DNA of 39,418 bases, from positions 1-39,418 of the forward strand of contig CALCCB010000168.1 in the NCBI GenBank assembly GCA_937899625.1, read 5' to 3'. The stretch comes from an uncultured Bacteroidota bacterium. GTDB taxonomy: Bacteria > Bacteroidota > Bacteroidia > Flavobacteriales_D > Crocinitomicaceae. Made by a program: the position numbers and the translations under genes. Position 1 is the stretch's first letter; every line of letters begins with the position of its first letter. The notes beneath the pieces were generated by a model. The model was not told the DNA's origin, searched no databases, and saw nothing but the letters and a program-made list of their open reading frames with translations. This document shows, piece by piece, positions 2,414 to 22,460 of this stretch.

Positions 2414-3412
2414 GTGAATCCAAATCAGAAGATATCAGTCATTGGCGGAGGTAGTTGGGCTACGGCTTTAGTGAAAATCCTCTGCAATAATGTTAATTCG
2501 ATCAACTGGTGGATGCGCAATGAGGGTGCCGTTGCCCATATCTTAAAGTACAGACACAATCCCAATTACCTTCAATCTGTAGAATTTGATCTGAACAAGA
2601 TCAACGTCAGTACCGACCTGGAAGAGATCATACGTCCAGCGGATATTGTGATCATTGCAACGCCATCGGCATTTCTTGTTTCCATATTTGAGAATTTTCC
2701 AAAGGAGATACTGAAGGACAAGATCATCTTCTCTGCTGTTAAAGGAATTGTTCCTGAATACAATGCCATCCCTGCACGCTTCATTCATAAGACGTTTGGT
2801 ACTCCTTACGACAACATTGGGATCATCTGCGGACCTTGTCATGCTGAAGAAGTAGCAATGGAGAGACTATCTTATCTAACCATTGCTTGTGGTGAAGAAG
2901 ATCACGCAGAAGAAATGGCTGAATTGCTTGCTTGTCGATATATCAAGACCACCGTTTCAGATGATCTGTTCGGAACCGAGCTTTCGGCGGTTCTTAAAAA
3001 TGTATACGCACTCGCTTCAGGGATCTGTGCCGGATTAGGATATGGAGATAACTTTCAATCGGTATTGATCAGTAATGCCATCCAGGAGATCGAGAACTTT
3101 ATCGACGAGGTTAGTCCCATCCACAGAGACGTTAAATCAAGTGCTTATTTAGGTGACCTTCTTGTTACTGCATATTCGAAATTCTCCAGAAACAGAACCT
3201 TTGGATTCATGATCGGAAAGGGATACTCTGTGAAAACAGCTCAACTCGAAATGGACATGATCGCTGAAGGATATTACGCGACGAAATGTGTGATGGAGAT
3301 CAATAAAAAATTCCAGGTCGAAATGCCCATCGTTGAGGCAGTATACCGAATACTCTACGAAAGGATCTCTCCGGTGATTGAAATGAGACTCCTCACAGAT
3401 AAGCTTTCTTAA
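2414..3412 (+). CDS. gpsA: NAD(P)-dependent glycerol-3-phosphate dehydrogenase
   Basis: 332 aa, the usual length. Cytoplasmic enzyme that reduces dihydroxyacetone phosphate to sn-glycerol 3-phosphate, the backbone of phospholipids. The N-terminal Rossmann fold has GGGSWATA at residues 11-18. The C-terminal catalytic domain has the conserved ELSAVLKNVYALASG block with the catalytic lysine near residue 195, and IICGPCHAEEVA matches the family block that normally reads SGPSFAxE. The start is GTG: the Rossmann strand begins directly after MNPNQK, there is no in-frame ATG close enough to include it, and a TAATTTTG promoter box sits 4 nt upstream. It is followed after 60 bp by an aspartate kinase on the same strand that has its own promoter-like sequence. 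Confidence 0.93.
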   Translation: MNPNQKISVIGGGSWATALVKILCNNVNSINWWMRNEGAVAHILKYRHNPNYLQSVEFDLNKINVSTDLEEIIRPADIVIIATPSAFLVSIFENFPKEILKDKIIFSAVKGIVPEYNAIPARFIHKTFGTPYDNIGIICGPCHAEEVAMERLSYLTIACGEEDHAEEMAELLACRYIKTTVSDDLFGTELSAVLKNVYALASGICAGLGYGDNFQSVLISNAIQEIENFIDEVSPIHRDVKSSAYLGDLLVTAYSKFSRNRTFGFMIGKGYSVKTAQLEMDMIAEGYYATKCVMEINKKFQVEMPIVEAVYRILYERISPVIEMRLLTDKLS

Positions 3413-9077: not shown

Positions 9078-11039
9078 TTATTTCTCAGCTACCTTTTTTA
9101 GCTCTTCAGTGCCCAGATTCACCATCTCTTTAACTGTCTTCACAATAGATGCTTTATCAAAGCCGCAATCTGCCCAAAGTTCTTCCTGCGTACCATGGTG
9201 GATATACTGATCTGGAATTCCTAAACGAACCACTTCAGCCTGGTATTTCTGGTCGACCATGAATTCAAGAACAGCTGAACCAAATCCACCCATCAGACAA
9301 CCATCTTCAACAGTGATCACTTTCTTGAACTTTGAGAACACTTCATGAAGCATCACTTCATCGATCGGCTTCACGAAACGCATATCATAGTGCGCTACCG
9401 AAACTCCTGAACCCTTCAGTTGTTCGATGGCGGCTTTCGCAAAATTACCCGGATGACCAATCGTCAGGATCGCAACATCGTCTCCATTGGTCAGCTTTCT
9501 TCCCGTACCAACTTTAACGGCCTTCATAGCAGTTTTCCATTCTGTCATTACACCGTTTCCTCGCGGATAACGAATGGTGAATGGACCCATATTTTCCTGC
9601 TGTGCAGTAAACATAAGATTTCTCAATTCAGCTTCATCCATTGGTGCTGAAACGATCATGTTCGGGATATGACGCATGTACGCAAGGTCATACGCTCCAT
9701 GGTGTGTTGCTCCATCTGCTCCAACGAGTCCACCTCTGTCCAGACAGAAAACTACGTTTAGATTCTGAAGTGCTACATCATGCAAAACCTGATCATAGGC
9801 ACGCTGCATGAATGAAGAATAAATATTACAGAACGGAACCAATCCCTGAGTAGCTAATCCTGCAGAGAAAGTAACCGCATGCTGCTCAGCGATCCCCACG
9901 TCAAAAGCACGATCCGGCATAGCTGCCATCATGATATTCAACGAACATCCGGAAGGCATTGCGGGTGTAACACCCATGATCTTCTCATTCTTCTCTGCCA
10001 GCTCAACGATCGTATGACCGAAAACATCCTGGTATTTAGGCGGCTGAGGAGATTTGGGAAGGATCTTAACGATCTCCCCAGTTTCTTTGTTGAAAACCCC
10101 AGGTGCATGCCACTTGGTTGGATTTCCTTCCTCTGAGTATTTGTATCCGGCTCCTTTGCGCGTTATACAATGCAGGATCTTTGGTCCCGGAATATCTTTC
10201 AGGTCTTCCAGCACTCTTGCCAATCCGACTACATCGTGTCCGTCAACCGGACCAAAATAACGGAAATTCAGAGATTCAAAGAGGTTGCTTTGTTTGAGCA
10301 ATGAGCCTTTCAACGCATGAGATACTTTTGAGGCGATCGTCTGGGCATCAGGTCCAAATTTGGATATTTTCCCAAGAAGCTGCCAAACTTCATCCTTCAC
10401 TTTGTTGTACGTGTGAGATGTCGTTATGTCCGTCAAATATTCTTTCAGCGCACCCACGTTCGGATCGATCGACATACAGTTGTCGTTCAGGATCACCAAC
10501 AAGTTGGCATCTTTTTCAAATCCTGCATGATTCAAACCTTCAAAAGCCAAACCTGCAGTCATGGCACCATCACCGATCACCGCAATATGCTGACGATTCT
10601 TTTCACCTTTGTAACGATTCGCTACTGCCATTCCCAGCGCTGCAGAGATCGAGGTTGATGAGTGTCCAACACCGAATGTATCGTACTCACTTTCTGATCT
10701 TTTTGGGAATCCCGAAATTCCACCTTTCAATCTATTCGTGTGAAAACGCTCTCTCCTACCGGTTAAGATCTTATGGCCGTAGGCTTGATGTCCAACATCC
10801 CAAACCAACTGATCGTCTGGCGTATTGAAGACATAATGCAAAGCAACGGTCAACTCAACAACACCCAGTGATGCTCCGAAATGCGAATTTCCGATCTCGG
10901 AGATCACATCAACGATATACTGACGTACCTCGTCTGCCAACTGCGGCAGATCATCCGTAGTGAATTTCTCTCGCAGATCCGCCGGAATGGTGATCTGAGA
11001 AAGCAAAGGTCCAGCCTCGTAGTTGTGTTTTTGTGCCAT
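9078..11039 (-). CDS. dxs: 1-deoxy-D-xylulose-5-phosphate synthase
   Basis: 653 aa from the ATG chosen here (MAQKHNYEAG). Thiamine-diphosphate enzyme condensing pyruvate and glyceraldehyde 3-phosphate, the entry step of the MEP isoprenoid pathway. Visible blocks: SHFGASLGVVELTVALH with the active-site His, the ThDP/Mg motif GDGAMTAG...LNDN, the transketolase pyrimidine-binding part (VGIAEQHAVTFSAGLA) and a C-terminal transketolase domain (ITVEDGCLMGGFGSAV). An in-frame TTG at 11048 would add three residues but overlaps the promoter -7 box, so the ATG at 11039 is preferred. Confidence 0.95.
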   Translation of the reverse strand: MAQKHNYEAGPLLSQITIPADLREKFTTDDLPQLADEVRQYIVDVISEIGNSHFGASLGVVELTVALHYVFNTPDDQLVWDVGHQAYGHKILTGRRERFHTNRLKGGISGFPKRSESEYDTFGVGHSSTSISAALGMAVANRYKGEKNRQHIAVIGDGAMTAGLAFEGLNHAGFEKDANLLVILNDNCMSIDPNVGALKEYLTDITTSHTYNKVKDEVWQLLGKISKFGPDAQTIASKVSHALKGSLLKQSNLFESLNFRYFGPVDGHDVVGLARVLEDLKDIPGPKILHCITRKGAGYKYSEEGNPTKWHAPGVFNKETGEIVKILPKSPQPPKYQDVFGHTIVELAEKNEKIMGVTPAMPSGCSLNIMMAAMPDRAFDVGIAEQHAVTFSAGLATQGLVPFCNIYSSFMQRAYDQVLHDVALQNLNVVFCLDRGGLVGADGATHHGAYDLAYMRHIPNMIVSAPMDEAELRNLMFTAQQENMGPFTIRYPRGNGVMTEWKTAMKAVKVGTGRKLTNGDDVAILTIGHPGNFAKAAIEQLKGSGVSVAHYDMRFVKPIDEVMLHEVFSKFKKVITVEDGCLMGGFGSAVLEFMVDQKYQAEVVRLGIPDQYIHHGTQEELWADCGFDKASIVKTVKEMVNLGTEELKKVAEK

Positions 11040-11045
11040 GCTGAG

Positions 11046-11076
11046 CAAAGTTAAGTGGAATTGCTGTCTATAACAA
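11046..11076 (-). promoter_or_regulatory. dxs promoter (TTG - 20 nt - TAACTTTG)
   Basis: On the minus strand, TTG (11076-11074), a 20-nt spacer and TAACTTTG (11053-11046) match the full Bacteroidota vegetative consensus. Only 6 nt separate the -7 box from the dxs ATG, so the mRNA should have almost no leader. This also fixes the start codon. Confidence 0.7.
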
Positions 11077-11126
11077 ACAAGCGGTAGGTTTATTTTGTTC
11101 GAGTTTCTAATAAAAGTTAATTAAAA

Positions 11127-11200
11127 CCTCCCCCCACTTGAGGGGGAATCAAGAGGGTGACACTGAGTGATCAGTGATGAGAAAATAGTGATCCGTTTTC
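11127..11200 (+). repeat. G/C-rich hairpin repeat (GGGTGAC family) plus inverted heptad remnant
   Basis: CCCCC...TTGAGGGGG forms a hairpin at about 11129-11146, followed by AATCAAGAGGGTGAC (11147-11161), the conserved tail of the hairpin family also seen at 15875-15956 and 16416-16579. Directly after it, the minus strand reads ACTGATC-ACTCAGT, a two-unit remnant of the heptad repeats. The rest of the 11049-11369 gap holds the dxs promoter, about 140 bp without recognisable signal (11200-11340) and the terminator of the next gene. Confidence 0.65.
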
Positions 11201-11340
11201 GGTAAATCTATTTACAAGCATTTTCCAACATGTTTCAGGGATCTTCGGACATTACGTCATGAAGTTATCAAAGGTATTAATAGCCTTATTGACATTTGTT
11301 CCCCGAATCATCCAAAAGATTTATAAAACTTTATGAAAAC

Positions 11341-11364
11341 AAAAAAAGGGAGCCGAAGCTCCCT
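11341..11364 (-). terminator. Rho-independent terminator of the T9SS protein gene 11370-13706
   Basis: On the minus strand: a GGGAGC-TTCG-GCTCCC hairpin (stem 11348-11353 with 11358-11363, stable UUCG-type loop) followed by a run of seven T (11347-11341). It lies 6 bp after the TAG stop of the upstream gene. Confidence 0.88.
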
Positions 11365-11369
11365 GATGT

Positions 11370-13706
11370 CTAATTTAATTTTATGAAACGCTGACAGTAT
11401 TTAAAATCTCGATAGACAAATTCGACATGATAAATCCCTGAGCTAAGCTCAGAAGTATTTACTTTGTGAACTTTTGTCTCATTGGAATTGATTACATACT
11501 CTTGAACCAACTTGCCATAGTTATCACGTATAGCGAGTTCAATTGGTTCATTGGCAAGGTCATCTCGGACCATGAAAGAAAAATCTTCAGTTGAGGGGTT
11601 CGGATAGATTTCAGAAACAATTTCTTCAATAAATCCTTCACGATTTACCTCAGCAATTCTGGAAAAATTTTCAGTGCCATCAAAATCAACCTGGATTAAT
11701 CTGTAATAGGATATGGGAATAATAGGTTGTTCATCCCTGAATTGATAGTAGTGTTCGGATGTTGAACTTCCATTCCCTTGAACAATTCCAATTTGTTGCC
11801 ATGCCAATCCATTTTCGCTTCTTTGAACAATAAAGTAGTCATTGTTCCTTTCATTGCTTGTAATCCAATTTAAAAAATTAGATTTTCCATCTTGTATTGC
11901 ATTAAATTTTTTCAAAGTTACACCAAGAACAACCGGATTACAACTCAATGTTCCTGTTCCACTTATTCCTAAAGTTATTACTGGCTGTGGACCTCCATTC
12001 TGAAAAATATTCACCAACAAAGCATACGTTTCACCAGCTGTAACTTGTAATGGTGCAACCCATCCATCACCACCGGCTTCTTCATAATAGTCAGCAGCAC
12101 CATTCCCAATACCTACAGGATTTGCCGCCGCCGAATAGGAACATCGGATTGGAGAAATACCTGAGCTTGGGCACGGTATGTAATTGTCCGTTGTCGGGCC
12201 ATACACAGCAAAATCGTAATCTTGTCCGGCTGGGCCATCAAAACTAAGCTCTATTGATCCTGTATTTTCTGCCTGAAAATAGTACCAGTTGGATGATACC
12301 TCATAAGAATTTAAAAAACAACCATTGGTTTGAGAAGACAACTCATGACCGCCAACTGAAACTGAATTGGTAGCGGGAAGCTGTCCATCTGAACAAATCC
12401 ATATCCCACATCCACCACTACAATCTTGCTGGGAGCAAAAATTAGTATTATTTCCGGGTGTTGAAGAACAAGTTACGTTCGCAGTCCACCCACTGCTTAC
12501 AATTGAGCTATTCGAAACAAAGGAAAACTGTAAGCAGCCATCTGTAGATGAGGATGTAATGGTCGATTGAATAGTTGTTCCTGAACCTTCATAAATTATT
12601 GGTGCTTGACTGGATGAACCATTCATCACAACTAAGTAGTCACCAGAACCTAGGCTAAAATTGGTAAAATTCACTGAAACATATTGTCCTGGAGTACTCG
12701 GGCAAAGTGTATAAAAAGCTGAAGTATTCACTGAATAATTTCCATTTCCTCCCGGATCACTGAATGTATATGAAGATCCACAATTAATCTGGGTATTACC
12801 AGTAACGATCTGAGATGCCAAATTTGCATGAGTACTGGCACAAATATTTATTGAGCCCATATTGTCCTGGTAGTCCCAAACTCGGATGTAAATGGTTTCT
12901 CCTGGTGTCCCTGTATAGGTAGCACTTGATGGTGTAACCGTACTTAATGTGTATGCACATTCCTGATGAACCAAAGAAGAACAACTTCCGGAGTATACTG
13001 CTATCCCCGGATACATGGTTCCCGCCGCTGGTGCATCCACAGCCTGAATAGTTAATATCCCATTAGCAGGAACAACTGCTGAATACCATATATCCTCTGA
13101 TGCTGTTTGACTGAAGCTTCCACATCCAGGTTCGGGCAATACAGTTGATACAGAGCCAAATAAATTCGAAACTGTGGAATAGGTACAAGACCCAACTCCA
13201 ACCGGTAAAGCGATGGCACCACAAGGTTCATCATTTGAAGGAGGGGACAAACAATTCATAGTCGCAATCCAGTTTGTGATTGTATTATAAGTACCATTCT
13301 CTATATAACGCACAGTAATGCATGAACTTGGAGAAGCACTATATATTGTGGGAGCCGAACCAGAACTGATGGTAGTCCATGTAACACCATTATCTAGGCT
13401 ATATTGAAATGTTTCTTGGTTCGCTCCTTGTCCGCTATTGTTATATGCAACACTACTGAAAACTAACTGAGCATATTGGCCTGACTGAGGACAAATTGTT
13501 ACTGTAAGATTTTCATTATCAGCTCCTCCAGCTGAAGCTCCTCCAGAATCATAAAAAGTTCCCCCACAGGAGATTGTTGAACCAAGAGTAAAGGTACCAT
13601 TTTGCATGTTTAGATTCTGCCCCCATCCCAAGGACGAAAGCAAAAATGAAAGGATAAAGAACAGTGAATACGAGCGACTCAGCAGTTTAGGTAGGTAAAG
13701 TTTCAT
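11370..13706 (-). CDS. Secreted CUB-like protein with T9SS type A sorting domain
   Basis: 778 aa from MKLYLPKLL (an alternative ATG lies three codons upstream at 13715). Signal peptide to about residue 30 (ends SLGWGQ). Two CUB-like modules, each with a CGGTFYDSGG / CGSSYTFSDPGG start and a CP-x-G-QY strand, are separated by a PPC/DUF-like domain opening with SNDEPCGAIALPVGVGSC. A Cys-rich segment follows (SQQDCSGGCGIWIC). The C-terminus has the T9SS type A sorting domain: EIYPNPSTEDFSF, then GKLVQEY, LSSGIYHVEF and a basic/hydrophobic end (CQRFIKLN). The protein is expected to cross the outer membrane through the T9SS and be anchored or released after removal of that domain. No catalytic motif was recognised; an adhesion or matrix role is likely. 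It has its own promoter (13806-13836) and terminator. Confidence 0.85.
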   Translation of the reverse strand: MKLYLPKLLSRSYSLFFILSFLLSSLGWGQNLNMQNGTFTLGSTISCGGTFYDSGGASAGGADNENLTVTICPQSGQYAQLVFSSVAYNNSGQGANQETFQYSLDNGVTWTTISSGSAPTIYSASPSSCITVRYIENGTYNTITNWIATMNCLSPPSNDEPCGAIALPVGVGSCTYSTVSNLFGSVSTVLPEPGCGSFSQTASEDIWYSAVVPANGILTIQAVDAPAAGTMYPGIAVYSGSCSSLVHQECAYTLSTVTPSSATYTGTPGETIYIRVWDYQDNMGSINICASTHANLASQIVTGNTQINCGSSYTFSDPGGNGNYSVNTSAFYTLCPSTPGQYVSVNFTNFSLGSGDYLVVMNGSSSQAPIIYEGSGTTIQSTITSSSTDGCLQFSFVSNSSIVSSGWTANVTCSSTPGNNTNFCSQQDCSGGCGIWICSDGQLPATNSVSVGGHELSSQTNGCFLNSYEVSSNWYYFQAENTGSIELSFDGPAGQDYDFAVYGPTTDNYIPCPSSGISPIRCSYSAAANPVGIGNGAADYYEEAGGDGWVAPLQVTAGETYALLVNIFQNGGPQPVITLGISGTGTLSCNPVVLGVTLKKFNAIQDGKSNFLNWITSNERNNDYFIVQRSENGLAWQQIGIVQGNGSSTSEHYYQFRDEQPIIPISYYRLIQVDFDGTENFSRIAEVNREGFIEEIVSEIYPNPSTEDFSFMVRDDLANEPIELAIRDNYGKLVQEYVINSNETKVHKVNTSELSSGIYHVEFVYRDFKYCQRFIKLN

Positions 13707-13805
13707 AATATACATATTAGTTACAACATATTTTTATATGAAGTAGCCGTGTAATTTTGGTGTTTTGTGGTTCAATGAAATGATCAAAAAATCTTTTCAG
13801 TGGTG

Positions 13806-13836
13806 CAAAGCTATAACTTAAAATACTAAAAACCAA
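13806..13836 (-). promoter_or_regulatory. Promoter of the CUB-like T9SS protein (TTG - 20 nt - TAGCTTTG)
   Basis: On the minus strand, TTG at 13836-13834, 20 nt, TAGCTTTG at 13813-13806. All conserved positions match. Unlike the short-leader genes nearby, it leaves about 95 nt of AT-rich 5' leader before the start at 13706. An imperfect AT palindrome (ATATTTTTATAT) lies within that leader. Confidence 0.65.
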
Positions 13837-13961
13837 AAAAATAACTTTCGATAAATGAAAATTAATTATCTAATATCGAGTAAATTCTTGGACTCTTAGA
13901 ATATTTATAATTTACCATTACATTCATGAAACGAGAGACAAGGGGAAAAGGTTGCCCTTTT

Positions 13962-14141
13962 AAAGTGAAAAGTGAAAGTATCGAGAATAAGCCGCCACTC
14001 GAACTGACGTTGTTGGAATAAGGAGCAAAGAGCTGAGACTGTTTCGCTGTGAGAGTAGAGACTAATTACTAATCACTGTTTACTAATTACTAATTACTGA
14101 GATGCACAAGTCCTCAATTTCGACTTTGAACTTTTCACTTT
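13962..14141. repeat. 180-bp MITE-like repeat block with 12-bp inverted ends
   Basis: The block starts with AAAGTGAAAAGT (13962-13973) and ends with its exact inverse complement ACTTTTCACTTT (14130-14141). Inside are GAAAGTATCGAGAATAAGCC...CACTCGAACTGACGTTGTTGG (13974-14016, repeated at 15092-15134 with one mismatch; search words should be cut to 20 bases), two purine heptads AGGAGCA-AAGAGCT (14021-14034), and six ACTnnTn heptads (14061-14102). No ORF and no obvious target-site duplication. It fills the gap between the T9SS protein promoter region and the hydrolase stop; bases 13837-13961 are AT-rich with nothing else recognised. Confidence 0.65.
14061..14102 (+). repeat. Heptad tract, copy 2
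   Basis: Six uninterrupted 7-bp units: ACTAATT, ACTAATC, ACTGTTT, ACTAATT, ACTAATT, ACTGAGA. They are in the same orientation as copy 1 and are the most regular example of the family in the window. Confidence 0.8.
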
Positions 14142-14145
14142 GGTT

Positions 14146-14907
14146 TCAGCGTAAGCAGAAACCAAGAAGTGTATCAATAAACAAGTCCGGTGCCTCTGCA
14201 TGCACCCAGTGACCGGCGTTGGGAACGGTGACTAATGTGGAGTCCGGGAAATAATCTTCCAGCTGATCGATGTCTTCGTCGAGGATGTAATTGGAAAGCT
14301 CGCCGCGAATAAACAAGGTGGGCGTAAATACTTCGGCTTCAGGAATTGCTCCCAAAATGTCTTTCATCTCGCGTTCCAGCACCTTCAGATTCATGCGGAA
14401 AGCCAGCTTTCCTTTCTCTTTCCAATACAAGTTCTTCAATAAAAACTGAATTACTCCTTCGGAATCGATGTACTTTCTCAATACTGCATCTGCCTCACTT
14501 CTGGCTTTCATATGCTCTAGATCCAACGCATGTAAACCGGCCAGAATATGTTGGTGATGCATCGGGTATTCTTTGACTCCTATATCCACCACAACCAGCT
14601 TCTCTAATAACTCTTCGTGTTGCTGTGCAAACAACATCGCCACCTTTCCTCCCATGGAATGCCCGACCAGTATAAACTTCTCTAATCCCAGATCTATTGC
14701 GAGCTCGTGAATGTCATCCGCCATCAGCTGATAGGAAAACTCTTCACTCCAATCGGAATGACCGTGATTGCGCAGGTCAACGAGAATTACACGATAATAC
14801 TCAGACAGCTTCTTGGCATGCGTCTGCCAGTTGTCAGAAAAACCAAACAATCCATGCAGGATTATCATTGGCTGACCCTCGCCCATCTCACGGTAGTGCA
14901 ATTTCAT
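14146..14907 (-). CDS. Alpha/beta-fold hydrolase (YbfF-like esterase)
   Basis: 253 aa from MKLHYREMGEG. Cytoplasmic esterase/hydrolase of the alpha/beta fold. Visible are the oxyanion strand ILHGLFGFSDNW (about 16-27), DLRNHGHSDW, the nucleophile elbow GHSMGG with Ser84, an acid-bearing strand around LFIRGELSNYILDEDID and the catalytic His233 in AGHWVHAEAP. The pattern is that of the YbfF/acyl-CoA esterase group; the substrate cannot be read from sequence. An upstream in-frame start would run through the promoter and repeat DNA, so the ATG at 14907 is used; its promoter box ends 4 nt before it. The gene is bracketed by the two near-identical 43-bp repeat copies at 13974-14016 and 15092-15134. 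Confidence 0.9.
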   Translation of the reverse strand: MKLHYREMGEGQPMIILHGLFGFSDNWQTHAKKLSEYYRVILVDLRNHGHSDWSEEFSYQLMADDIHELAIDLGLEKFILVGHSMGGKVAMLFAQQHEELLEKLVVVDIGVKEYPMHHQHILAGLHALDLEHMKARSEADAVLRKYIDSEGVIQFLLKNLYWKEKGKLAFRMNLKVLEREMKDILGAIPEAEVFTPTLFIRGELSNYILDEDIDQLEDYFPDSTLVTVPNAGHWVHAEAPDLFIDTLLGFCLR

Positions 14908-14911
14908 GATG

Positions 14912-14941
14912 CAAATGTACCGAACAAGAAACAAAGAGCAA
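14912..14941 (-). promoter_or_regulatory. Hydrolase promoter (TTG - 19 nt - TACATTTG)
   Basis: On the minus strand, TTG at 14941-14939, 19 nt, TACATTTG at 14919-14912. The box is 4 nt from the ATG. The -33 TTG is formed by the first AAGAGCA heptads of the neighbouring repeat, so the repeat supplies part of this promoter. Confidence 0.6.
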
Positions 14942-15283
14942 AGAGCAAGGAGCAAGGAGCTGAGACCGTTATACTGCGAGACCGTTTCACTGAGGGAGTC
15001 GAGACTAATTAGTGATCACTGTTCACTAATTACTATTCACTGATTACTCGTTCTCGATACAACGACCGTCAATTCGAGTTTTCTTTTTAAAGAAAGTATC
15101 GAGAATAGGCCGCCACTCGAACTGACGTTGTTGGAGAATGGAGAATGGAGCTGAGACCGTTTAACTGAGAGCGCCTAGAACAGAGCGTAGAGACTAATTA
15201 CTAATCACTGTTTACTAATCACTATACACTGATTACTCGTTCTCGATATATTCCGACAAGTCGGAACACACGAACTGACGAGG
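14934..15283 (+). repeat. Composite repeat block: two heptad tracts alternating with TCGAGAA/CGAACTGACG elements
   Basis: In order: four purine heptads AAGAGCA, AAGAGCA, AGGAGCA, AGGAGCT (14934-14961); ACTnnTn heptads at 15004-15052 ending ACTCGTT-CTCGATA (to 15059); ACCGTCAATTCGAG; a hairpin TTTCTTT-TT-AAAGAAA (15080-15095); TATCGAGAAT...CACTCGAACTGACG (to 15127); heptads GGAGAAT, GGAGAAT, GGAGCTG (15133-15153); a second ACTnnTn tract at 15193-15241, again ending ACTCGTT-CTCGATA; a hairpin TTCCGAC-AA-GTCGGAA (15251-15266); and CACGAACTGACGAGG to 15283. It fills the gap between the hydrolase and the HMA lipoprotein; no ORF is visible. Bases 15284-15365 are an AT-rich leader. Confidence 0.75.
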
Positions 15284-15365
15284 CTGGTTTTCAATTTTTT
15301 AACAATCAAATAAACTTTGCTGTAACTATTTTGTTGTTACTTTGTCTTACAGCCAAAACATCTTT

Positions 15366-15869
15366 ATGAGATCATTTGCCATTTTGACGTCTGGAATTCT
15401 TCTACTAAGTGCATGCTCGCATGAGCCTAATGAAGTATTATTAAGAACCGAGAAAGGCGCTGGGGACAAAGTAACCGTAAAGGTTACACCTACTGCCATG
15501 ATGACGATCGATGTTGAAGGAATGACTTGTGAAATGGGATGTGGTGGAAGTATCCGTAAAGAATTAAAAGGTACGGGTGGTGTTTCCAGAGTGAAATTCG
15601 ATTTCGAAGAAGGCCGTAAAGTTCAAACAGCATATATCTATTTCGATGAAACTGTCATTCGTCCGGAAGAGATCAAGAACATCATGACCTCCATGAACGA
15701 CAAGCAGTTCACTGTTTCGAACGACAAGGTAGAAGAGCTGGAAACCGTGGCTTCATTAAATGAAGAGTCAGCTCCTTCCAAAGAAGAAGAATCCAAAGTT
15801 CAAATGGATGAAACTTCAGTTAAAGTTCCGAATCTGATTGGAATTTTAAAGGATTTGGTGGTTAATTGA
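15366..15869 (+). CDS. Lipoprotein with heavy-metal-associated (HMA) domain
   Basis: 167 aa from MRSFAILTSG. A lipoprotein signal peptide ends in the lipobox LLSAC with Cys17, so the protein should be membrane-anchored in the periplasm or at the surface. An HMA-like ferredoxin fold spans about residues 43-115 (MMTIDVEGMTCEMGCGG...). The metal motif is GMTCEMGC: Cys55 and Cys59 are three residues apart, where classical copper chaperones have CxxC. A short acidic/Ser tail (VASLNEESAPSKEEESK) and a hydrophobic end (VPNLIGILKDLVVN) follow. I infer binding of a soft metal such as copper, or loss of metal binding. A start upstream at a TTG would spoil the signal peptide. A weak promoter (TTG 15317, TTACTTTG 15337-15344) precedes it. 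Confidence 0.82.
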   Translation: MRSFAILTSGILLLSACSHEPNEVLLRTEKGAGDKVTVKVTPTAMMTIDVEGMTCEMGCGGSIRKELKGTGGVSRVKFDFEEGRKVQTAYIYFDETVIRPEEIKNIMTSMNDKQFTVSNDKVEELETVASLNEESAPSKEEESKVQMDETSVKVPNLIGILKDLVVN

Positions 15870-15874
15870 TATTT

Positions 15875-15956
15875 TCTCCCGAGAAGACCAAGAGGGGTGA
15901 CTCATTTATAATTCTTTCCATTTCTCCCCTTGAGGGGAGATCAAGAGGGGTGACTC
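15875..15956 (+). repeat. Two hairpin repeats of the GGGTGAC family, plus orientation
   Basis: Copy a (15875-15903): TCTCccGAGA hairpin then AAGAGGGGTGACTC. Copy b (15923-15956): an 8-bp perfect stem TCTCCCCT-TG-AGGGGAGA, then TCAAGAGGGGTGACTC. They start 5 bp after the lipoprotein stop and end 26 bp before the stop of the DUF559 gene. The stems could act as terminators, but no T tract follows. The GTGAC ends face the DUF559 gene. Confidence 0.75.
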
Positions 15957-15982
15957 CCAGTTAAGCTTGAGACTGTATTTTT

Positions 15983-16360
15983 TCAATGACCCGATAGACA
16001 ATCAACGATGTGAAGCAACTTTGCTTCTGTATCCTTCAATTGAAACAGGACTTCACTCTCAGTTAAACGGACAACCGTATAACCCATTTTTTCAAGTTCC
16101 TTCTGACGATTCATATCTTCTAACCCTTTATTCAGGTGAGCATTTCCATCTATTTCGATGATCAAAAACAGTTCTGGACAAAAGAAATCTACGATGTAGT
16201 TTCCAATAGGTCGTTGTCTTAGAAATCGAAGTTCTTTGAGCTGTTTATTCGATAATACTCTTTTCCAAAGCAATTTCTCTGCTATAGAAACTGATTTAGT
16301 CCGAAGTTTTCGTGAGAGTAATTTTAAATCTTTGTTGTAATGATGGTTCGAGTAACGCAT
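15983..16360 (-). CDS. DUF559 / Vsr-like endonuclease-domain protein
   Basis: 125 aa, full length for the family. A basic N-terminus (LSRKLRTKSVSIAEKLLWKRVL) is followed by the family core RFLRQRPIGNYIVDFFCPEL, then FLIIEIDGNAH. The likely PD-(D/E)XK-type residues are Asp58, Glu69, Asp71 and His75, and a C-terminal GYTVVRLTESEV strand follows. DUF559 proteins belong to the restriction-endonuclease-like/Vsr superfamily; most are uncharacterised single-gene nucleases. There is no methylase, mutL or toxin partner nearby. It stands alone between two sets of inverted hairpin repeats (15875-15956 and 16416-16579), which suggests that it travels with them. Confidence 0.85.
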   Translation of the reverse strand: MRYSNHHYNKDLKLLSRKLRTKSVSIAEKLLWKRVLSNKQLKELRFLRQRPIGNYIVDFFCPELFLIIEIDGNAHLNKGLEDMNRQKELEKMGYTVVRLTESEVLFQLKDTEAKLLHIVDCLSGH

Positions 16361-16415
16361 TTACTGAATTTACGAAAAATTGGGTAGGATTAGAACTTAA
16401 TTCTGCACATTATTA

Positions 16416-16579
16416 GTCACCCACCCTGCCCTCCCTCAAGGGAGGAAGAGTATTTGATATTTCGATTCTCGGGGATAATTGCGTCACCCTCCCTGCCCTC
16501 CCTCAAGGGAGGAAAAGTATTCAAAAGATATTTTCAGGTGCAACAATAGTCACCCACCCTGCCCTCCCTCAAGGGAGGA
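16416..16579 (-). repeat. Three 31-bp hairpin repeats of the GGGTGAC family, minus orientation, 66-67 bp period
   Basis: Copies at 16416-16446, 16483-16513 and 16549-16579. On the plus strand each begins GTCACCC[A/T]CCCTGCC and ends CCTCCCT-CA-AGGGAGGA (7-bp stem, 2-base loop); copies 1 and 3 are identical and copy 2 differs at one base. The 36- and 35-bp intervals are not identical but share AGTATT and GATATTT words, as expected of a duplicated 66-bp unit that has drifted. The last copy ends 6 bp before the -33 element of the Kazal-protein promoter. The rest of the 16361-16640 gap shows nothing else. Confidence 0.85.
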
Positions 16580-16585
16580 GGAAAC

Positions 16586-16618
16586 TTGGATTTACCGAAA
16601 AAATAAAGCGTATTTTTG
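16586..16618 (+). promoter_or_regulatory. Promoter of the Kazal-domain protein (TTG - 22 nt - TATTTTTG)
   Basis: TTG at 16586-16588, 22 nt, TATTTTTG at 16611-16618: a full match to the Bacteroidota consensus, with a leader of about 15-18 nt before the ATG at 16641. Confidence 0.65.
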
Positions 16619-16640
16619 ATGCGATCCAACAACTATTCAC

Positions 16641-17297
16641 ATGAAAGCTATCATTACATTTACGATGGTTTGCCTTATGGCAATTTTACCGGTGTTCTCA
16701 TTCGCTCAACCGTGCGTTGACCCCACATTGATCGATCTTGATGCAGTATGCATCCAGGTATATGACCCAGTTTGTGGCTGTGATGGAATTACATATACCA
16801 ACAGCTGCTACGCAGTGAACTATGGTGGCGTAACCAGTTATACTGCTGGTGAATGTCAAACGACAATTGCACCGGAATGTACTGATCTATCGAATGTTGA
16901 TTTTGGAGCTTGTGCTGCTGTTTTAGGTTTTGGGATCGTCAATGGGAATTGTGCACTGATCTCTGGCTGTGGTGAAGTCGTGAACAATGTAGACTATTCA
17001 TTATCCCTCACGCCAACCTTGGCACAATGTGAAGCATGTTTAGGGGCTAATGTACCTGAGGAAGTTCTTTCCAATATTGCGCTCTATCCTAATCCTGCGA
17101 ATGAAAAAATTATGGTTCAGTTCGCTGGATCAGAACAAATCACCTATTCGATCCTGGATATTAGTGGAAGAATACTACTAAAAGGAAAGATCAATCCTCA
17201 AGATGAGATCAACGTCTCTTCTCTTCTATCAGGCAATTATCAGATCGTATTTGAAACAAATGATGATCGCGTAGTTAAATCGCTGAGAAAGCTTTAA
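16641..17297 (+). CDS. Secreted Kazal-domain protein with T9SS type A sorting domain
   Basis: 218 aa. The signal peptide ends FAQ at residue 23. A Kazal-type domain covers about 25-72 with six cysteines (C25, C37, C45, C47, C56, C72) and the family core PVCGCDGITYTNSCYA. A second Cys-bearing segment (about 80-135: CTDLSNVDFGACAAVLGFG, NGNCALISGC, QCEAC) is of unknown type. The C-terminus has a T9SS type A sorting domain: IALYPNPANEKIMVQF, then DISGRILLKG, LLSGNYQIVF and a basic end (KSLRKL). Kazal domains inhibit serine proteases. A secreted, T9SS-exported inhibitor could protect the cell surface from proteases; the target is unknown. It converges on ileS with 8 bp between the stops. Confidence 0.88.
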   Translation: MKAIITFTMVCLMAILPVFSFAQPCVDPTLIDLDAVCIQVYDPVCGCDGITYTNSCYAVNYGGVTSYTAGECQTTIAPECTDLSNVDFGACAAVLGFGIVNGNCALISGCGEVVNNVDYSLSLTPTLAQCEACLGANVPEEVLSNIALYPNPANEKIMVQFAGSEQITYSILDISGRILLKGKINPQDEINVSSLLSGNYQIVFETNDDRVVKSLRKL

Positions 17298-17305
17298 TCT
17301 GACTT

Positions 17306-20300
17306 CTATCCTTTGATCAGATCGATCTTTGTATCGCCTTCTACTTCCAAGTCTGTAACCAAAGCTGATGTGCTTACACCGTCAAAGGTGATATCGTTGG
17401 CAAGGACCTCATTGCATACATACTGCATGTTTGCTTTGATCGCCTCGCGGATTGCTTCATTGGTTTCAACCTTCAATAAAATGCGGTCGGTTACTTCAAG
17501 ACCAGAATCTTTTCTTAAATTCTGAACTCTATTTACCAGCTCTCGAGCAATACCTTCTGCTTTTAATTCATCCGAAATCGTAATGTCCAGAGCAACCGTT
17601 AATCCACCCTCCGTAGCCACTAACCATCCTGGAATATCCTGAGCTGCGATCTCGAAATCATTCATATCTAGCTCAACTTCAACACCATCGATCTCACCTT
17701 TCCATCCGCCATTCGCTTCCACAGCCGAGATCTCATCTCCAGACATTTGCCCTACCATGGCAGCGATCGATTTCATCTGCTTTCCGTATTTCGGTCCGAT
17801 CGTTTTAAAGTTAGGCTTGATGCTTTTCACCAGCATATTACTTCCTTCTTCAAGTAATTCGAGTTCTTTCACGTTCACTTCTGACAAGATCAGATCTTTC
17901 ACGTGTAAAATGTTCTCAGCAAACGTTTTATTCAACGCTGGAACCATGATCTTCTGCAAAGGCTGACGAACACGGATCTTTTCCTTCTTTCGCAAAGCAA
18001 GGATCAGCGAAGAAGTGCGCTGTGCGATATCCATCTGATCTTCAAGTGAAAGATCGATCATGCTTTCATTTACTGCAGGAAAATCAGCCAGGTGAACTGA
18101 ATCCACCGAATGACGACCTGAAACTGAATTCAGATCACTGAACAGCTGATCCATAAAGAATGGAGCAATTGGAGCACTCAATATGGCAACAGTTTCCAGA
18201 CACGTATACAATGTTTGGTAAGCTGACTGCTTATCCTGAAGGTCATCTGATTTCCAGAATCGTCTTCTGCACAAACGAACATACCAGTTCGACAATTGAT
18301 CATTCACGAAATCCTCGATCAAACGTCCTGCCTTCGTAGGCTCATAATCGGCATACGATTCATCTACTGCTTTGATCAATGAATTCAGCTTGGAGAGTAC
18401 CCAACGGTCGATCTCAGGTCTGTCTTGTAAAGCAATCTCACCCTGACTATAATCAAACCCATCAATATTCGCATATAAAGAGAAGAAAGAGTAGGTATTG
18501 TATAGTGTTCCGAAGAATTTGCGCTGAACTTCAGTCACGCCATCCAAGTCAAATTTCAGGTTATCCCATGGCTGTGCATTCGTGATCATATACCAGCGGG
18601 TGGCATCCGGTCCATATTTCGATAACGTTTCGAATGGATCAACAGCATTCCCTAAACGCTTGGACATTTTCTGTCCGTTCTTGTCCAGTACCAATCCGTT
18701 TGAAACCACATTCTTGTAGGCTACAGAATCAAAGACCATGGTTGCGATCGCATGAAGTGTATAGAACCATCCACGCGTCTGGTCCACTCCTTCAGCAATG
18801 AAGTCGGCAGGATAAGAATTCCCTCCATCGATCAGCTCCTTATTTTCAAAAGGATAATGCCATTGTGCATAAGGCATCGCCCCTGAATCGAACCATACGT
18901 CGATCAGATCAGATTCACGTTTCATTGGTTTTCCGGAAGGTGATACCAACGTGATCTGGTCCACATAATTCTTGTGCAGATCGATCTGCGCATAATTCTC
19001 CTTTGACATATCACCGGCAGTGAATCCAGCGAGAGGATTAGAAGTCATAAATCCTGCTGCAACTGCCTTATCACATTCTGCTTTCAGCTGTTCAACTGAA
19101 GAGATACAAACTCTTTCGTCTCCTTCTTCTGTCGACCAGATCGGAATTGGAATTCCCCAATAACGCGAACGCGATAAGTTCCAGTCGTTGGCATTTTCCA
19201 ACCATTTCCCAAAGCGACCTGAACCTGTAGATTCCGGTTTCCAGTTGATGGTATTGTTCAATGCGATCATTTTGTCCTTGACGTCAGTCACACGGATAAA
19301 CCATGAATCCAACGGATAATACAATACAGGTTTATCTGTTCTCCAGCAATGTGGATAGCTGTGGACATATTTCTCAACCTTGAACGCTTTGTTCTCAGTC
19401 TTTAGTTTTATAGCGATCTGAACATCCACCGACTTTTCAGGAGCGTCTCCATCATTGTAGTATTCATTCTTCACATGCATTCCGGCAAGCTCACCCATTT
19501 CAGGTCTGAACTTCCCTTGAAGATCTACCAAAGGAACCAGATTTCCTCTCTCGTCTTCTACCAACATGGCAGGCACTCCGGCATCTGCTGCTACTCTGGC
19601 ATCATCTGCTCCAAAAGTTGGTGCTATATGTACGATCCCGGTACCATCTTCTGTAGTCACAAATTCACCTGAGATCACATGGAATGCTTTTTCAGGAGTT
19701 TGAGCCGGAAGTGTATATGGTAACAATTGTTCGTACGCAATACCCACAAGGTCAGCTCCATGGCACTCTCCTTCAACAAAGAATGGAATGGTTTTGTCTC
19801 CTGCTTTATAATTCTTTAATTCTTCGTCATTTTCAACTTGCTGATATCCTTTTCCGAACTGGTAGTTCAACAGGTTCTTCGCAAGGATCACTCTGATCGG
19901 TTCAAACGTATATTGGTTGAAAGACTGTACCAAGACATATTCGATCTTCGGTCCGACACAAAGTGCAGTGTTCGAAGGAAGTGTCCAAGGGGTTGTCGTC
20001 CAAGCCAGGAAATGCACCGATCCATCAGCATCACATAGATGGTTTCTGAATTCAAAAGGCAATGCCTGATCATCCTTGATCTTAAACTGAGCAACAACAG
20101 TCGTATCCGACACATCTCGGTAACATCCCGGTTGATTCAATTCATGCGAAGAAAGTCCTGTCCCTGCCTTTGGCGAATATGGCTGAATTGTATATCCTTT
20201 GTATAACAAATTCTTCTCATACAGCTGACCCAGCAACCACCAAACCGATTCCATGTATTTTGGTTCATAGGTGATATATGGATCATCCATGTCGACCCAA

Positions 20301-20725
20301 TACCCCATTTTCATAGTCAGGTCGTTCCAGATATCCGTGTAACGCATCACCGCCTCACGACAAGCCTTGTTATACTCATCCACTGAAATCTTGGTGCCGA
20401 TATCCTCTTTGGAAATGCCCAATTCTTTTTCCACGCCCAACTCAACAGGTAGACCATGGGTATCCCATCCGGCCTTTCTTTTTACCTGGTATCCTTTCAG
20501 CGTTTTATATCGGCAAAAAATATCCTTGATGGAACGGGCCATCACGTGGTGAATACCCGGTAATCCATTTGCAGATGGCGGACCTTCAAAGAAAATATAC
20601 GGGGTCTTACCCTCTCTTGTTGAGATCGACCTTTCAAACACTTTGTTGGTATTCCACTTCTCCAGAACTGCACTAGCTACATTCGGCAGATGAAGTCCTT
20701 TGTATTCAGGATATTTTTTCTCCAT
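17306..20725 (-). CDS. ileS: Isoleucyl-tRNA synthetase
   Basis: 1139 aa, in the range of the longer IleRS type. Charges tRNA-Ile with isoleucine in the cytoplasm and edits mischarged valine. The class I signature HIGH appears as PSANGLPGIHH at residues 50-60 and KMSKR at 686-690 (DKNGQKMSKRLGN). The editing domain lies between (GWDTHGLPVE, then SGEFVTTEDGTGIVHIAPTFG). The anticodon-binding domain follows KMSKS (DRWVLSKLNSLIKAVDE), and a C-terminal extension replaces a Zn-binding end. There are no frameshifts. A SGNH hydrolase gene lies 64 bp upstream on the same strand. Confidence 0.97.
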   Translation of the reverse strand: MEKKYPEYKGLHLPNVASAVLEKWNTNKVFERSISTREGKTPYIFFEGPPSANGLPGIHHVMARSIKDIFCRYKTLKGYQVKRKAGWDTHGLPVELGVEKELGISKEDIGTKISVDEYNKACREAVMRYTDIWNDLTMKMGYWVDMDDPYITYEPKYMESVWWLLGQLYEKNLLYKGYTIQPYSPKAGTGLSSHELNQPGCYRDVSDTTVVAQFKIKDDQALPFEFRNHLCDADGSVHFLAWTTTPWTLPSNTALCVGPKIEYVLVQSFNQYTFEPIRVILAKNLLNYQFGKGYQQVENDEELKNYKAGDKTIPFFVEGECHGADLVGIAYEQLLPYTLPAQTPEKAFHVISGEFVTTEDGTGIVHIAPTFGADDARVAADAGVPAMLVEDERGNLVPLVDLQGKFRPEMGELAGMHVKNEYYNDGDAPEKSVDVQIAIKLKTENKAFKVEKYVHSYPHCWRTDKPVLYYPLDSWFIRVTDVKDKMIALNNTINWKPESTGSGRFGKWLENANDWNLSRSRYWGIPIPIWSTEEGDERVCISSVEQLKAECDKAVAAGFMTSNPLAGFTAGDMSKENYAQIDLHKNYVDQITLVSPSGKPMKRESDLIDVWFDSGAMPYAQWHYPFENKELIDGGNSYPADFIAEGVDQTRGWFYTLHAIATMVFDSVAYKNVVSNGLVLDKNGQKMSKRLGNAVDPFETLSKYGPDATRWYMITNAQPWDNLKFDLDGVTEVQRKFFGTLYNTYSFFSLYANIDGFDYSQGEIALQDRPEIDRWVLSKLNSLIKAVDESYADYEPTKAGRLIEDFVNDQLSNWYVRLCRRRFWKSDDLQDKQSAYQTLYTCLETVAILSAPIAPFFMDQLFSDLNSVSGRHSVDSVHLADFPAVNESMIDLSLEDQMDIAQRTSSLILALRKKEKIRVRQPLQKIMVPALNKTFAENILHVKDLILSEVNVKELELLEEGSNMLVKSIKPNFKTIGPKYGKQMKSIAAMVGQMSGDEISAVEANGGWKGEIDGVEVELDMNDFEIAAQDIPGWLVATEGGLTVALDITISDELKAEGIARELVNRVQNLRKDSGLEVTDRILLKVETNEAIREAIKANMQYVCNEVLANDITFDGVSTSALVTDLEVEGDTKIDLIKG

Positions 20726-20789
20726 GGATCTATCAAAAATTGAAGCGCGAAGATAAGGAAACAGCTGAAAGACAGCAAGGATTCTTTGT

Positions 20790-21506
20790 CTAGAATAGCG
20801 TATTACTCAATACATGAAAAAGTTTTTGATACCCAAGGCTGTTCAAATGCAATCTATCCGAATGATACAATGAAGCATTTATTCCCTCTTCCGAAAGAAA
20901 TTCGGGAGATACATCAATAAAATGAAACCCATTCTTAATGCAAGACTTTTCAAGCCATTTATTCATCCTAATCACCTCTTTTAAAGCAGATGATTCCCGG
21001 TTTAATATTGTTCTATCAGAAGGAATGATGCTAATGAAATAAACCTGTGTAGAAGTTACATTGCGCTTAATCGAATCAAAAAGGACACTGAATTGATGCT
21101 GAATGTCTTTTATTCTGTATCCGTCTATAATATCATTGATCCCAATTTCAATAATTAACTTTTTTGGGGAGGACTCAAGTACATTAACAATTCTATTTTT
21201 CAATCCATTGACATTATCTCCAATAATTCCCCTGTTGGAAATATTCACATCGTGAAAATGCTCATTAAGATTGCATAACTGAATATGAGAATCACCCATG
21301 AAAATGACTGAATTAGAATCTATTGTCAACGATTCCAAATATTCATTTCTGTTCAGCCAATAACCTTGAACTGCAGAATATTTCGGTGTTTTAACTTGAT
21401 TTTTATAGGGCAAATAAAAGCTGAAAATTAGCTTATAGATTACATAAATTGCTGTACACAAATGCAACAAAAGTGAAATCTTCCAATAAACAGGTTTTAT
21501 TTTCAT
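20790..21506 (-). CDS. Membrane-anchored SGNH/GDSL hydrolase
   Basis: 238 aa. An N-terminal hydrophobic helix (about 8-31) anchors the protein; the rest should face the periplasm. All SGNH blocks are present: block I FMGDSH with Ser73, block II NRGIIGD (91-97) with the Gly, block III GIND (122-125) with Asn, and block V with Asp217 and His220 (SDRLHLN). The family deacylates or deacetylates sugars, lipids or peptidoglycan; the platelet-activating-factor acetylhydrolase-like subgroup fits best, but the substrate cannot be named. The gene is more AT-rich than ileS next to it. It is divergent from the outer-membrane protein gene at 21618. Confidence 0.85.
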   Translation of the reverse strand: MKIKPVYWKISLLLHLCTAIYVIYKLIFSFYLPYKNQVKTPKYSAVQGYWLNRNEYLESLTIDSNSVIFMGDSHIQLCNLNEHFHDVNISNRGIIGDNVNGLKNRIVNVLESSPKKLIIEIGINDIIDGYRIKDIQHQFSVLFDSIKRNVTSTQVYFISIIPSDRTILNRESSALKEVIRMNKWLEKSCIKNGFHFIDVSPEFLSEEGINASLYHSDRLHLNSLGYQKLFHVLSNTLF

Positions 21507-21617
21507 TCATCTAAAAGTAGGAGAAATCCTGAAAATTTAATTCCAAAAGAAGTATACATGTAACTTTTCATTCACACTAATTGTCTTTAGATTACGTTTC
21601 GTAAAAAAACATGCGCC

Positions 21618-22460
21618 ATGAAATATTTTGGAACCCTTTTCTTCATCATGTTAATATTCACCTCTTTTGCACAGGAAGAAAAGAAGGTTAGTATTCACAA
21701 CGTTTATCTTCTAAACGGATCTAACTATATGACTGCTCCTTTTGAAGATCCTTCTGTATTTCAAGGTATGGCATCTGAATCTCAAATTCTGGCGCAAGAT
21801 TTAACTGGCTTTACTTCATCCGTTCTTTATCCGGGAATGAGCGGAGAGAACAGTACCACATCATTATTGATTGGATTATCCTTTAAAGACAGGGAAAATC
21901 AAATACTTAGGCTTGGCATTAATCATCGAATTGGAATGTATGCCCACACCAATTTGAGTAAAACGACAAAAACGCCATACGATACTTTAACCTCCTCGCA
22001 AACCGGGGAACAGTATTTCGTGGACTCCATTGAAACCACCTATATTCAGGGAGATGCACACTCCGAATACCTGGGAATCGAAGCCTCTATGATCTTTCAA
22101 ACTGCAGACGAATACCGCTGGTCTTTCTTCGGAGGATTTGGTATCGGACTCGGAATAGCATTCAACAATGAGATCAGGATCAATGAATTCAATTATAACT
22201 ATGCCTCCGGATTTCAATCCTCTTATTACGAATCGAATAGTCAACGATCTGAGATTTTCAAAGCTGACAGTTATCTTTCTTCTACCCTCTTTTTCCCACT
22301 TGGAATTGACTTCAGGATAGGGAAAAATCGTCCCTTCTGGCAAAGAGTTCATCTCTTGCTTGAGCTGCGTCCAAGTCTTACGGTTGCGAGCATTCCGGAA
22401 TACACCACTGTCGTGAACCCTGCCATGAACGGAAACGTCGGATTACGCATTAACTGGTGA
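21618..22460 (+). CDS. Predicted outer-membrane beta-barrel protein
   Basis: 280 aa, function not recognised. The signal peptide ends TSFAQ (residue 19). The mature part is rich in alternating aromatic/hydrophobic strands and Tyr/Ser/Asn turns (for example FFGGFGIGLGIAFNNEIRI, then LLELRPSLTVASIPEYTT) and closes with GNVGLRINW. A final aromatic residue on a C-terminal beta strand is typical of Bam-inserted barrels. Possible 8-10 strand barrel of the OmpW/PorT size class. The start is set by the signal peptide; another ATG two codons upstream is out of frame. It is followed after 50 bp by fumarase, which has its own TACCTTTA box (22482-22489). Confidence 0.7.
   Translation: MKYFGTLFFIMLIFTSFAQEEKKVSIHNVYLLNGSNYMTAPFEDPSVFQGMASESQILAQDLTGFTSSVLYPGMSGENSTTSLLIGLSFKDRENQILRLGINHRIGMYAHTNLSKTTKTPYDTLTSSQTGEQYFVDSIETTYIQGDAHSEYLGIEASMIFQTADEYRWSFFGGFGIGLGIAFNNEIRINEFNYNYASGFQSSYYESNSQRSEIFKADSYLSSTLFFPLGIDFRIGKNRPFWQRVHLLLELRPSLTVASIPEYTTVVNPAMNGNVGLRINW

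Follow-up and report, generated by a model that had tools for sequence, protein, structure and literature searches.

Within the window (the whole 39,418-base stretch of DNA that we analysed), a small DUF559 nuclease gene sits among short hairpin repeats, raising the question of whether gene and repeats are chance neighbours or parts of one mobile element. The gene encodes 125 aa on the minus strand (15983-16360) and belongs to a Vsr-like nuclease family (PF04480; Pfam E 1.2e-27). On its left are two plus-strand hairpin units. Unit 1, at about 15877-15902, was recognised by eye (direct repeat D17) and has a short degenerate stem, with the tail AAGAGGGGTGAC facing the gene; unit 2, at 15920-15956, consists of TCTCCCCTTGAGGGGAGA and a tail (covariance model R1, E 3.5e-4). 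Three inverted units on the minus strand lie to the right, at 16414-16449 (unit 3; CCTCCCTTGAGGGAGG and a tail; R1 E 1.7e-4), 16480-16516 (unit 4; R1 E 8.5e-4) and 16547-16582 (unit 5; R1 E 2.2e-4). The inverted layout described in the earlier note is real: every ...GTGAC end points toward DUF559. The tail that the note had described as shared, AAGAGGGGTGAC, is present on both left copies and absent from the rest of the genome; the right-hand copies end in GGGTGACTA (two copies) or GGGTGACGC (one copy).

A first hairpin pattern gave 4 forward and 3 reverse matches, versus 2 and 3 for the control, which was insufficient by itself. We trained R1 on 31 units from other loci, with the window excluded, and its best four matches in the window were the four good copies (E 1.7e-4 to 8.5e-4). 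Across the whole 2.9-Mb genome, with 150 of 249 first-look candidates scored, these copies accounted for four of the six matches at E<=0.1. A further copy at 11127-11163 (+), from which dispersal of the family had been argued, is only a weak and distant relative of the unit (R1 11.6 bits, E 0.18; D12 88% over 24 nt). Hence, in the window's genome the hairpin family is nearly restricted to the DUF559 locus, and the gene itself occurs once; dispersal is clear in relatives of this genome, as described below.

The window's own cassette is intergenic, with genes for a heavy-metal-associated-domain protein and a Kazal/Por-tail protein as neighbours (Pfam). Pfam found no cognate methylase gene among the neighbours. 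As previously noted, no transposase gene was seen among the ORFs listed for 10000-22000, of which four were scanned by family and six were not. Rfam at gathering scores returned no match for 14000-17300, and hence no intron family. We then compared the site with those of two sister species that have no DUF559. Homology stops at 15878 and resumes at 16598 in one of them (G125; 97% and 95%), and stops at 15877 and resumes at 16598 in the other (G140; 90% and 87%). These breaks delimit a variable block at 15878-16597 that comprises hairpins, the DUF559 gene and hairpins. At the same site both sisters have about 1.28 kb of other DNA. Because the sisters carry other inserts, the site is better described as a variable hot spot than as a clean empty site.

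The window protein scored 96.3 bits against PF04480 (gathering score 20.6), with residues 11-117 covered. We modelled it with AlphaFold2 (mean pLDDT 85.1) and searched the model with Foldseek. The top match was 3hrl, an endonuclease-like protein of N. gonorrhoeae, followed by the catalytic domain of the homing endonuclease I-Bth0305I (E 4.3e-4); Vsr ranked eighth (E 0.013). A profile search returned the same first two relatives (I-Bth0305I E 0.0056). The kinship to Vsr-like nucleases proposed from the sequence alone is borne out by the PF04480 match and by the presence of Vsr among the Foldseek matches. Residues E28, D58, E69, D71, H75 and D82 are invariant across 45 aligned DUF559 sequences, and the alignment with these presumed catalytic residues takes in eight copies embedded in other genes. 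The same kinship, in Pfam and in fold, to Vsr and restriction-like nucleases would suit a defence or repair enzyme whose hairpins are bound decoys, regulatory sites or self-marks rather than mobile ends, a reading to which we return below.

To survey the association across bacteria, we took the best 80 of 172 DUF559 loci found in a scan of genome contigs; 77 of the 80 are spread over 21 phylum-level groups. After leaving out nine loci with <200 bp on one side, C-rich hairpins lay within 200 bp on both sides of DUF559 at 52 of 71 loci, versus 2 of 356 other ORFs at the same loci, under a motif rule fixed after inspection of 20 loci and 54 of the other 60. For hairpins on any side the counts were 67/71 versus 58/356, and hairpin density in noncoding DNA was 7.0 versus 0.72 per kb in the same comparison. 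Four of the 71 loci have no hairpin by the motif rule. Because the rule had been set after the loci were viewed, we examined a later set of stand-alone DUF559 genes from the window's family, with flank windows 30 bp wider than in the first survey. All 25 genes have a hairpin on at least one side, and 15 have hairpins on both sides; this set excludes 5 of 30 loci (L099-L102, with open frames of >200 aa, and L128, without a flank) and includes one DUF559 copy with a stop. At eight loci for Vsr, a nuclease of kindred fold, in seven genomes of the window's family we found no hairpins. Hairpins are thus not equally common near all genes, and DUF559 genes elsewhere do have them. The tails are biased in orientation: 81 of 110 readable units point to the gene and 29 point outward.

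Phage records yielded no relative, and plasmid records yielded 34, of which we examined seven. Scored hairpins flank the gene on both sides in Azospirillum and Pseudanabaena, on both sides but with tails outward in Deinococcus (L096), and on one side only in Neisseria (L094) and Sinorhizobium (L095). We scored no hairpins in P. aeruginosa (L097), and the seventh record, from E. coli, has C-rich repeats on one side by eye.

Another explanation for such hairpins would be that they are ordinary bidirectional transcription terminators that lie near the gene by chance, and their GC-rich stems and mostly intergenic position in the window's relatives fit that description. However, their tails are G-rich with no T run, few other ORFs have them (2 of 356 on both sides, 58 on any side), the repeat accompanies genomes that carry DUF559, and units occur in frame within queA and other ORFs. 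We dropped the generic terminator explanation because of the units within open frames, and regard it as very improbable.

We next asked how gene and repeat are distributed over whole genomes. DUF559 is patchy in the window's family (79 of 200 genomes), and some copies there are decayed, with stops. A hairpin-plus-tail pattern was found in 69 of the 79 genomes with DUF559 versus 47 of the 121 without (Fisher 4.3e-12), a count that takes in overlapping matches as well as copies at the gene's own locus. After removal of weak DUF559 hits, the pattern occurred in 61 of 66 genomes with the gene versus 47 of 121 without, and none of 5000 genus-stratified permutations was as high as the observed value. 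The reversed-pattern control matched in 11 of the 200 genomes; in one of the genomes (G013) control matches outnumber true ones (28 versus 10). In a second family, mostly gut and rumen alphaproteobacteria, a somewhat different pattern, counted with the same inclusion of overlapping matches and copies at the locus, was found in 34 of 54 genomes with DUF559 versus 9 of 59 without, leaving 20 of the 54 as exceptions; its reversed control matched in 3 of 113 genomes. Among 26 genomes of the window's genus, R1 matched in all 12 that have DUF559 (119 matches in total), with 82 of the 119 matches on contigs lacking a DUF559 hit, and 8 of the 14 genomes without DUF559 have 18 matches. These contig counts indicate that part of the correlation between gene and repeat is due to copies at DUF559 itself. 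Exceptions to co-occurrence, in both directions, are genuine.

The units fall into two classes. Both begin with a C-rich stem and end with a G-rich tail, of the GGGTGAC or GGGGTG type by reading, and the second class has an extra small stem in between. Pairs could not be counted in the alignment of class-B units, which was too ragged, and a script was used to count stems instead. A second stem of at least 4 bp is present in 81% of 47 distinct cores, versus 7% after shuffling, and these cores have 31 different 5′ arms, so that the sequence varies while pairing is kept. GNA loops occur in 29 of the 47 cores, versus 6% after shuffling. Such loops form very stable DNA mini-hairpins, which suggests that single-stranded DNA may be the working form of the units. 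We also mapped hairpin class onto a DUF559 tree. Class changes 6 times over 68 rows, compared with a mean of 22.3 and a minimum of 16 in 300 shuffles; resolution of the tree is poor, with 36 of 78 inner branches open, and 13 of its 81 rows, which have no hairpin class, were left out. Judged from this tree, we conclude that hairpin class is inherited together with the DUF559 gene.

In alphaproteobacteria, apparent neighbours of DUF559 proved to be a single gene, queA, in which Queuosine_synth is split by DUF559 (10/10 tested, Pfam). The cassette lies in frame at either of two alternative places, of which the first is empty in L030, L060, L084, L085 and L087, and the second in L043, L046, L065, L066 and L076. 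These alternative sites and the patchy distribution of DUF559 both count in favour of the earlier note's interpretation. In L057 and L051 a lone hairpin unit occupies the other queA place, and L057 has an additional lone unit elsewhere in queA. Altogether, frames read by eye place 29 of the 80 surveyed loci inside, or in fusion with, a named host gene (queA for 20 of them); several of these loci are cut by contig ends, and 19 of the 29 were checked with Pfam. Other hosts checked in this way are ispG, hsdR, hydF, and methylases of the type ISP or Eco57I-like kind; for L063, Pfam gave no host family. In the window's family, DUF559 is in frame in metH, in leucyl-tRNA synthetase (leuS) and in a SpoIIE-domain gene, with scored hairpins on one side, one side and both sides, respectively. 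At the queA sites we saw by eye no clear target-site duplication or exact insertion boundary; the relatives compared are different, too diverged species.

Translational bypass and RNA splicing of the queA inserts were considered as alternatives. The reading frame stays open through the inserts, with no stops, and they contain no Rfam intron, which makes plain translation the simpler explanation. Pfam found no Hint family in 23 ORFs running through DUF559, and Rfam at gathering scores found no intron family in 14 embedded DUF559 loci. An AlphaFold2 model of a QueA-DUF559 fusion reached a mean pLDDT of 45.7 and was set aside. Separately, we observed a queA gene in L075 (4534-6684) with two in-frame DUF559 domains, one per site, which by eye differ strongly in sequence, and in L063 (5678-6000) ten tandem hairpin units ahead of DUF559 and inside one open frame.

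The main rival to the account that we prefer is strict homing, in which a double-strand break in an empty allele is repaired by gene conversion that copies the cassette, while the hairpins serve just as ends or for protection and spread passively. Homing would accord with the I-Bth0305I matches in both searches, with in-frame cassettes in conserved genes, and with the recurrent hits to queA across species. It would also accord with the distribution of the queA sites: the site label, with L067 excluded, changes 6 times over 19 rows of the poorly resolved DUF559 tree, compared with a shuffled mean of 6.6 and a minimum of 3. Changing about as often as shuffled labels, the queA site does not appear to track the DUF559 tree. 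However, the many dispersed lone units without a gene are not a product of simple homing, and different host genes are used in different lineages. We consider strict homing unlikely, though a good deal less so than the defence or repair reading introduced above. The latter can point to cassettes inside restriction-modification genes, but the alternative insertion sites, decayed copies with stops, genome-wide dispersal of units, and insertion into the housekeeping genes queA, leuS and metH all favour a selfish element, and we regard a defence or repair role as improbable.

We think it probable, with some confidence, that DUF559 and the hairpins together make up a single mobile system that resembles REP/RAYT and uses an enzyme like a homing endonuclease. 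The idea of a nuclease-linked mobile cassette, put forward in the earlier note, is supported by the checks that we ran, except for an empty site at the window locus. The product of the DUF559 gene would be a nuclease acting in trans, and the hairpin units would serve both as cassette ends and as non-autonomous copies. The gene would travel in cassettes that have inverted hairpins at their ends, and units, alone or in pairs, would disperse without the gene in the manner of REPs and RAYT. The nuclease, which in fold is close to Vsr and to the EDxHD homing endonuclease I-Bth0305I, would recognise the folded unit, probably in single-stranded DNA, and nick the DNA beside it; repair would then put a copy of the unit at a new site. 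Stop-free units would be tolerated in frame within protein genes. Recognition, cleavage, the copying route and transposition of the hairpins by DUF559 are what we infer from the patterns described above.

REP/RAYT systems (TnpAREP, REPtrons), as described in PMC8266576, have small dispersed palindromes with a conserved unpaired end and a small enzyme gene, and their enzyme and repeat co-evolve, features that the DUF559 system shares. Inverted repeats likewise flank DUF559 and disperse in genomes with the gene, with the exceptions given above. However, RAYT belongs to the HUH superfamily whereas DUF559 has a Vsr-like fold, and DUF559 units lack the GTAG tag. With both the HUH enzyme and the tag missing, we conclude that the DUF559 system works like REP/RAYT but is not a REP/RAYT system. 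Compared by description, Rickettsia palindromic elements resemble the lone units of the L057 queA gene in being palindromic units in frame within protein genes; these elements are about 150 bp, with no enzyme named in the passages of PMC10969869, whereas DUF559 inserts can hold the partner nuclease. I-Bth0305I has a similar catalytic fold and is a selfish mobile gene. According to passages of PMC3943268, it is a phage enzyme whose DNA-binding part is long and multi-domain, and it is filed as a mobile-intron protein; DUF559, in contrast, consists of a single small domain bounded by hairpins, for which we found no intron or intein.

A C-rich unit also lies beside the E. coli DUF559 gene ycjD; 5357 of 5426 genomes contain a match to it, at a median of 14 places. 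This unit is probably BoxC, which passages of PMC2267715 present as a dispersed repeat family of 50-56 bp. E. coli BoxC likely belongs to the DUF559 repeat system.

The pairing of hairpins and DUF559 in many phyla, sometimes in frame within genes, suggests a kind of mobile element that has gone largely unnoticed. In the open-access literature, our scope here to the exclusion of subscription papers and preprints, we found no report linking DUF559 to repeats. For DUF559, a widespread uncharacterised nuclease family, the link to a structured repeat provides a testable role; repeats such as BoxC gain a candidate enzyme, and the REP idea is extended to a second enzyme class. Repeats of the REP kind are found in a great many genomes, and some families are without a known spreading enzyme, among them the CGTC-tagged REPs, dispersed palindromes of several phyla that passages of PMC3733652 say lack a dedicated transposase. 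In-frame cassettes in queA, leuS, metH, ispG and hydF bear on how proteins acquire inserted domains. We are evenly balanced on a broader proposal: that mobile palindromes across bacteria may be driven by small DUF559-type PD-(D/E)XK nucleases acting on folded single-stranded hairpins, may ride in frame in essential genes without splicing, and may be the source of old families such as E. coli BoxC. The proposal includes a possible sister system in which GIY-YIG nucleases are coupled to CGTC-type repeats, so that repeat families regarded as enzyme-less would have nuclease partners.

The stem and tag of CGTC-tagged REPs, as given in those passages, differ from the C-rich units, and their possible partner here is a GIY-YIG nuclease and not DUF559. 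At the site of one sister we observed a small GIY-YIG nuclease ORF (L139 1176-1463, +; Pfam E 5e-15) bracketed by inverted CGTCAGTTCG-type palindromes, which are CGTC-type repeats. A CGTCAGTTCG-type motif lies within 400 bp at 7 of the 10 best GIY-YIG loci and at none of 20 others (30 fetched, L141-L150 among them), and none was found in 27,771 nt farther from GIY-YIG loci. On these motif positions, CGTC-type repeats may have the GIY-YIG nuclease as their partner. At the site of the other sister, a 23S_rRNA_IVP (four-helix bundle) ORF (L140 1853-2239, +) is bracketed by AATTCCTAATTCC tracts (AATTCC). Both sisters have a 259-aa ORF ahead of the Kazal gene (L139, reverse complement, 2462-3241; L140 2282-3061) that is methylase-like by eye, with no Pfam match at E<=0.001; the window lacks it and has the DUF559 block in that position. 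Near the cassette, at 13974-14141 and 14930-15290, the window contains repeats of the GTTCTCGATA...CGAACTGACG and ACTAATTACTAATCACTG families, apparently relics of the GIY-YIG/CGTC and 23S_rRNA_IVP systems.
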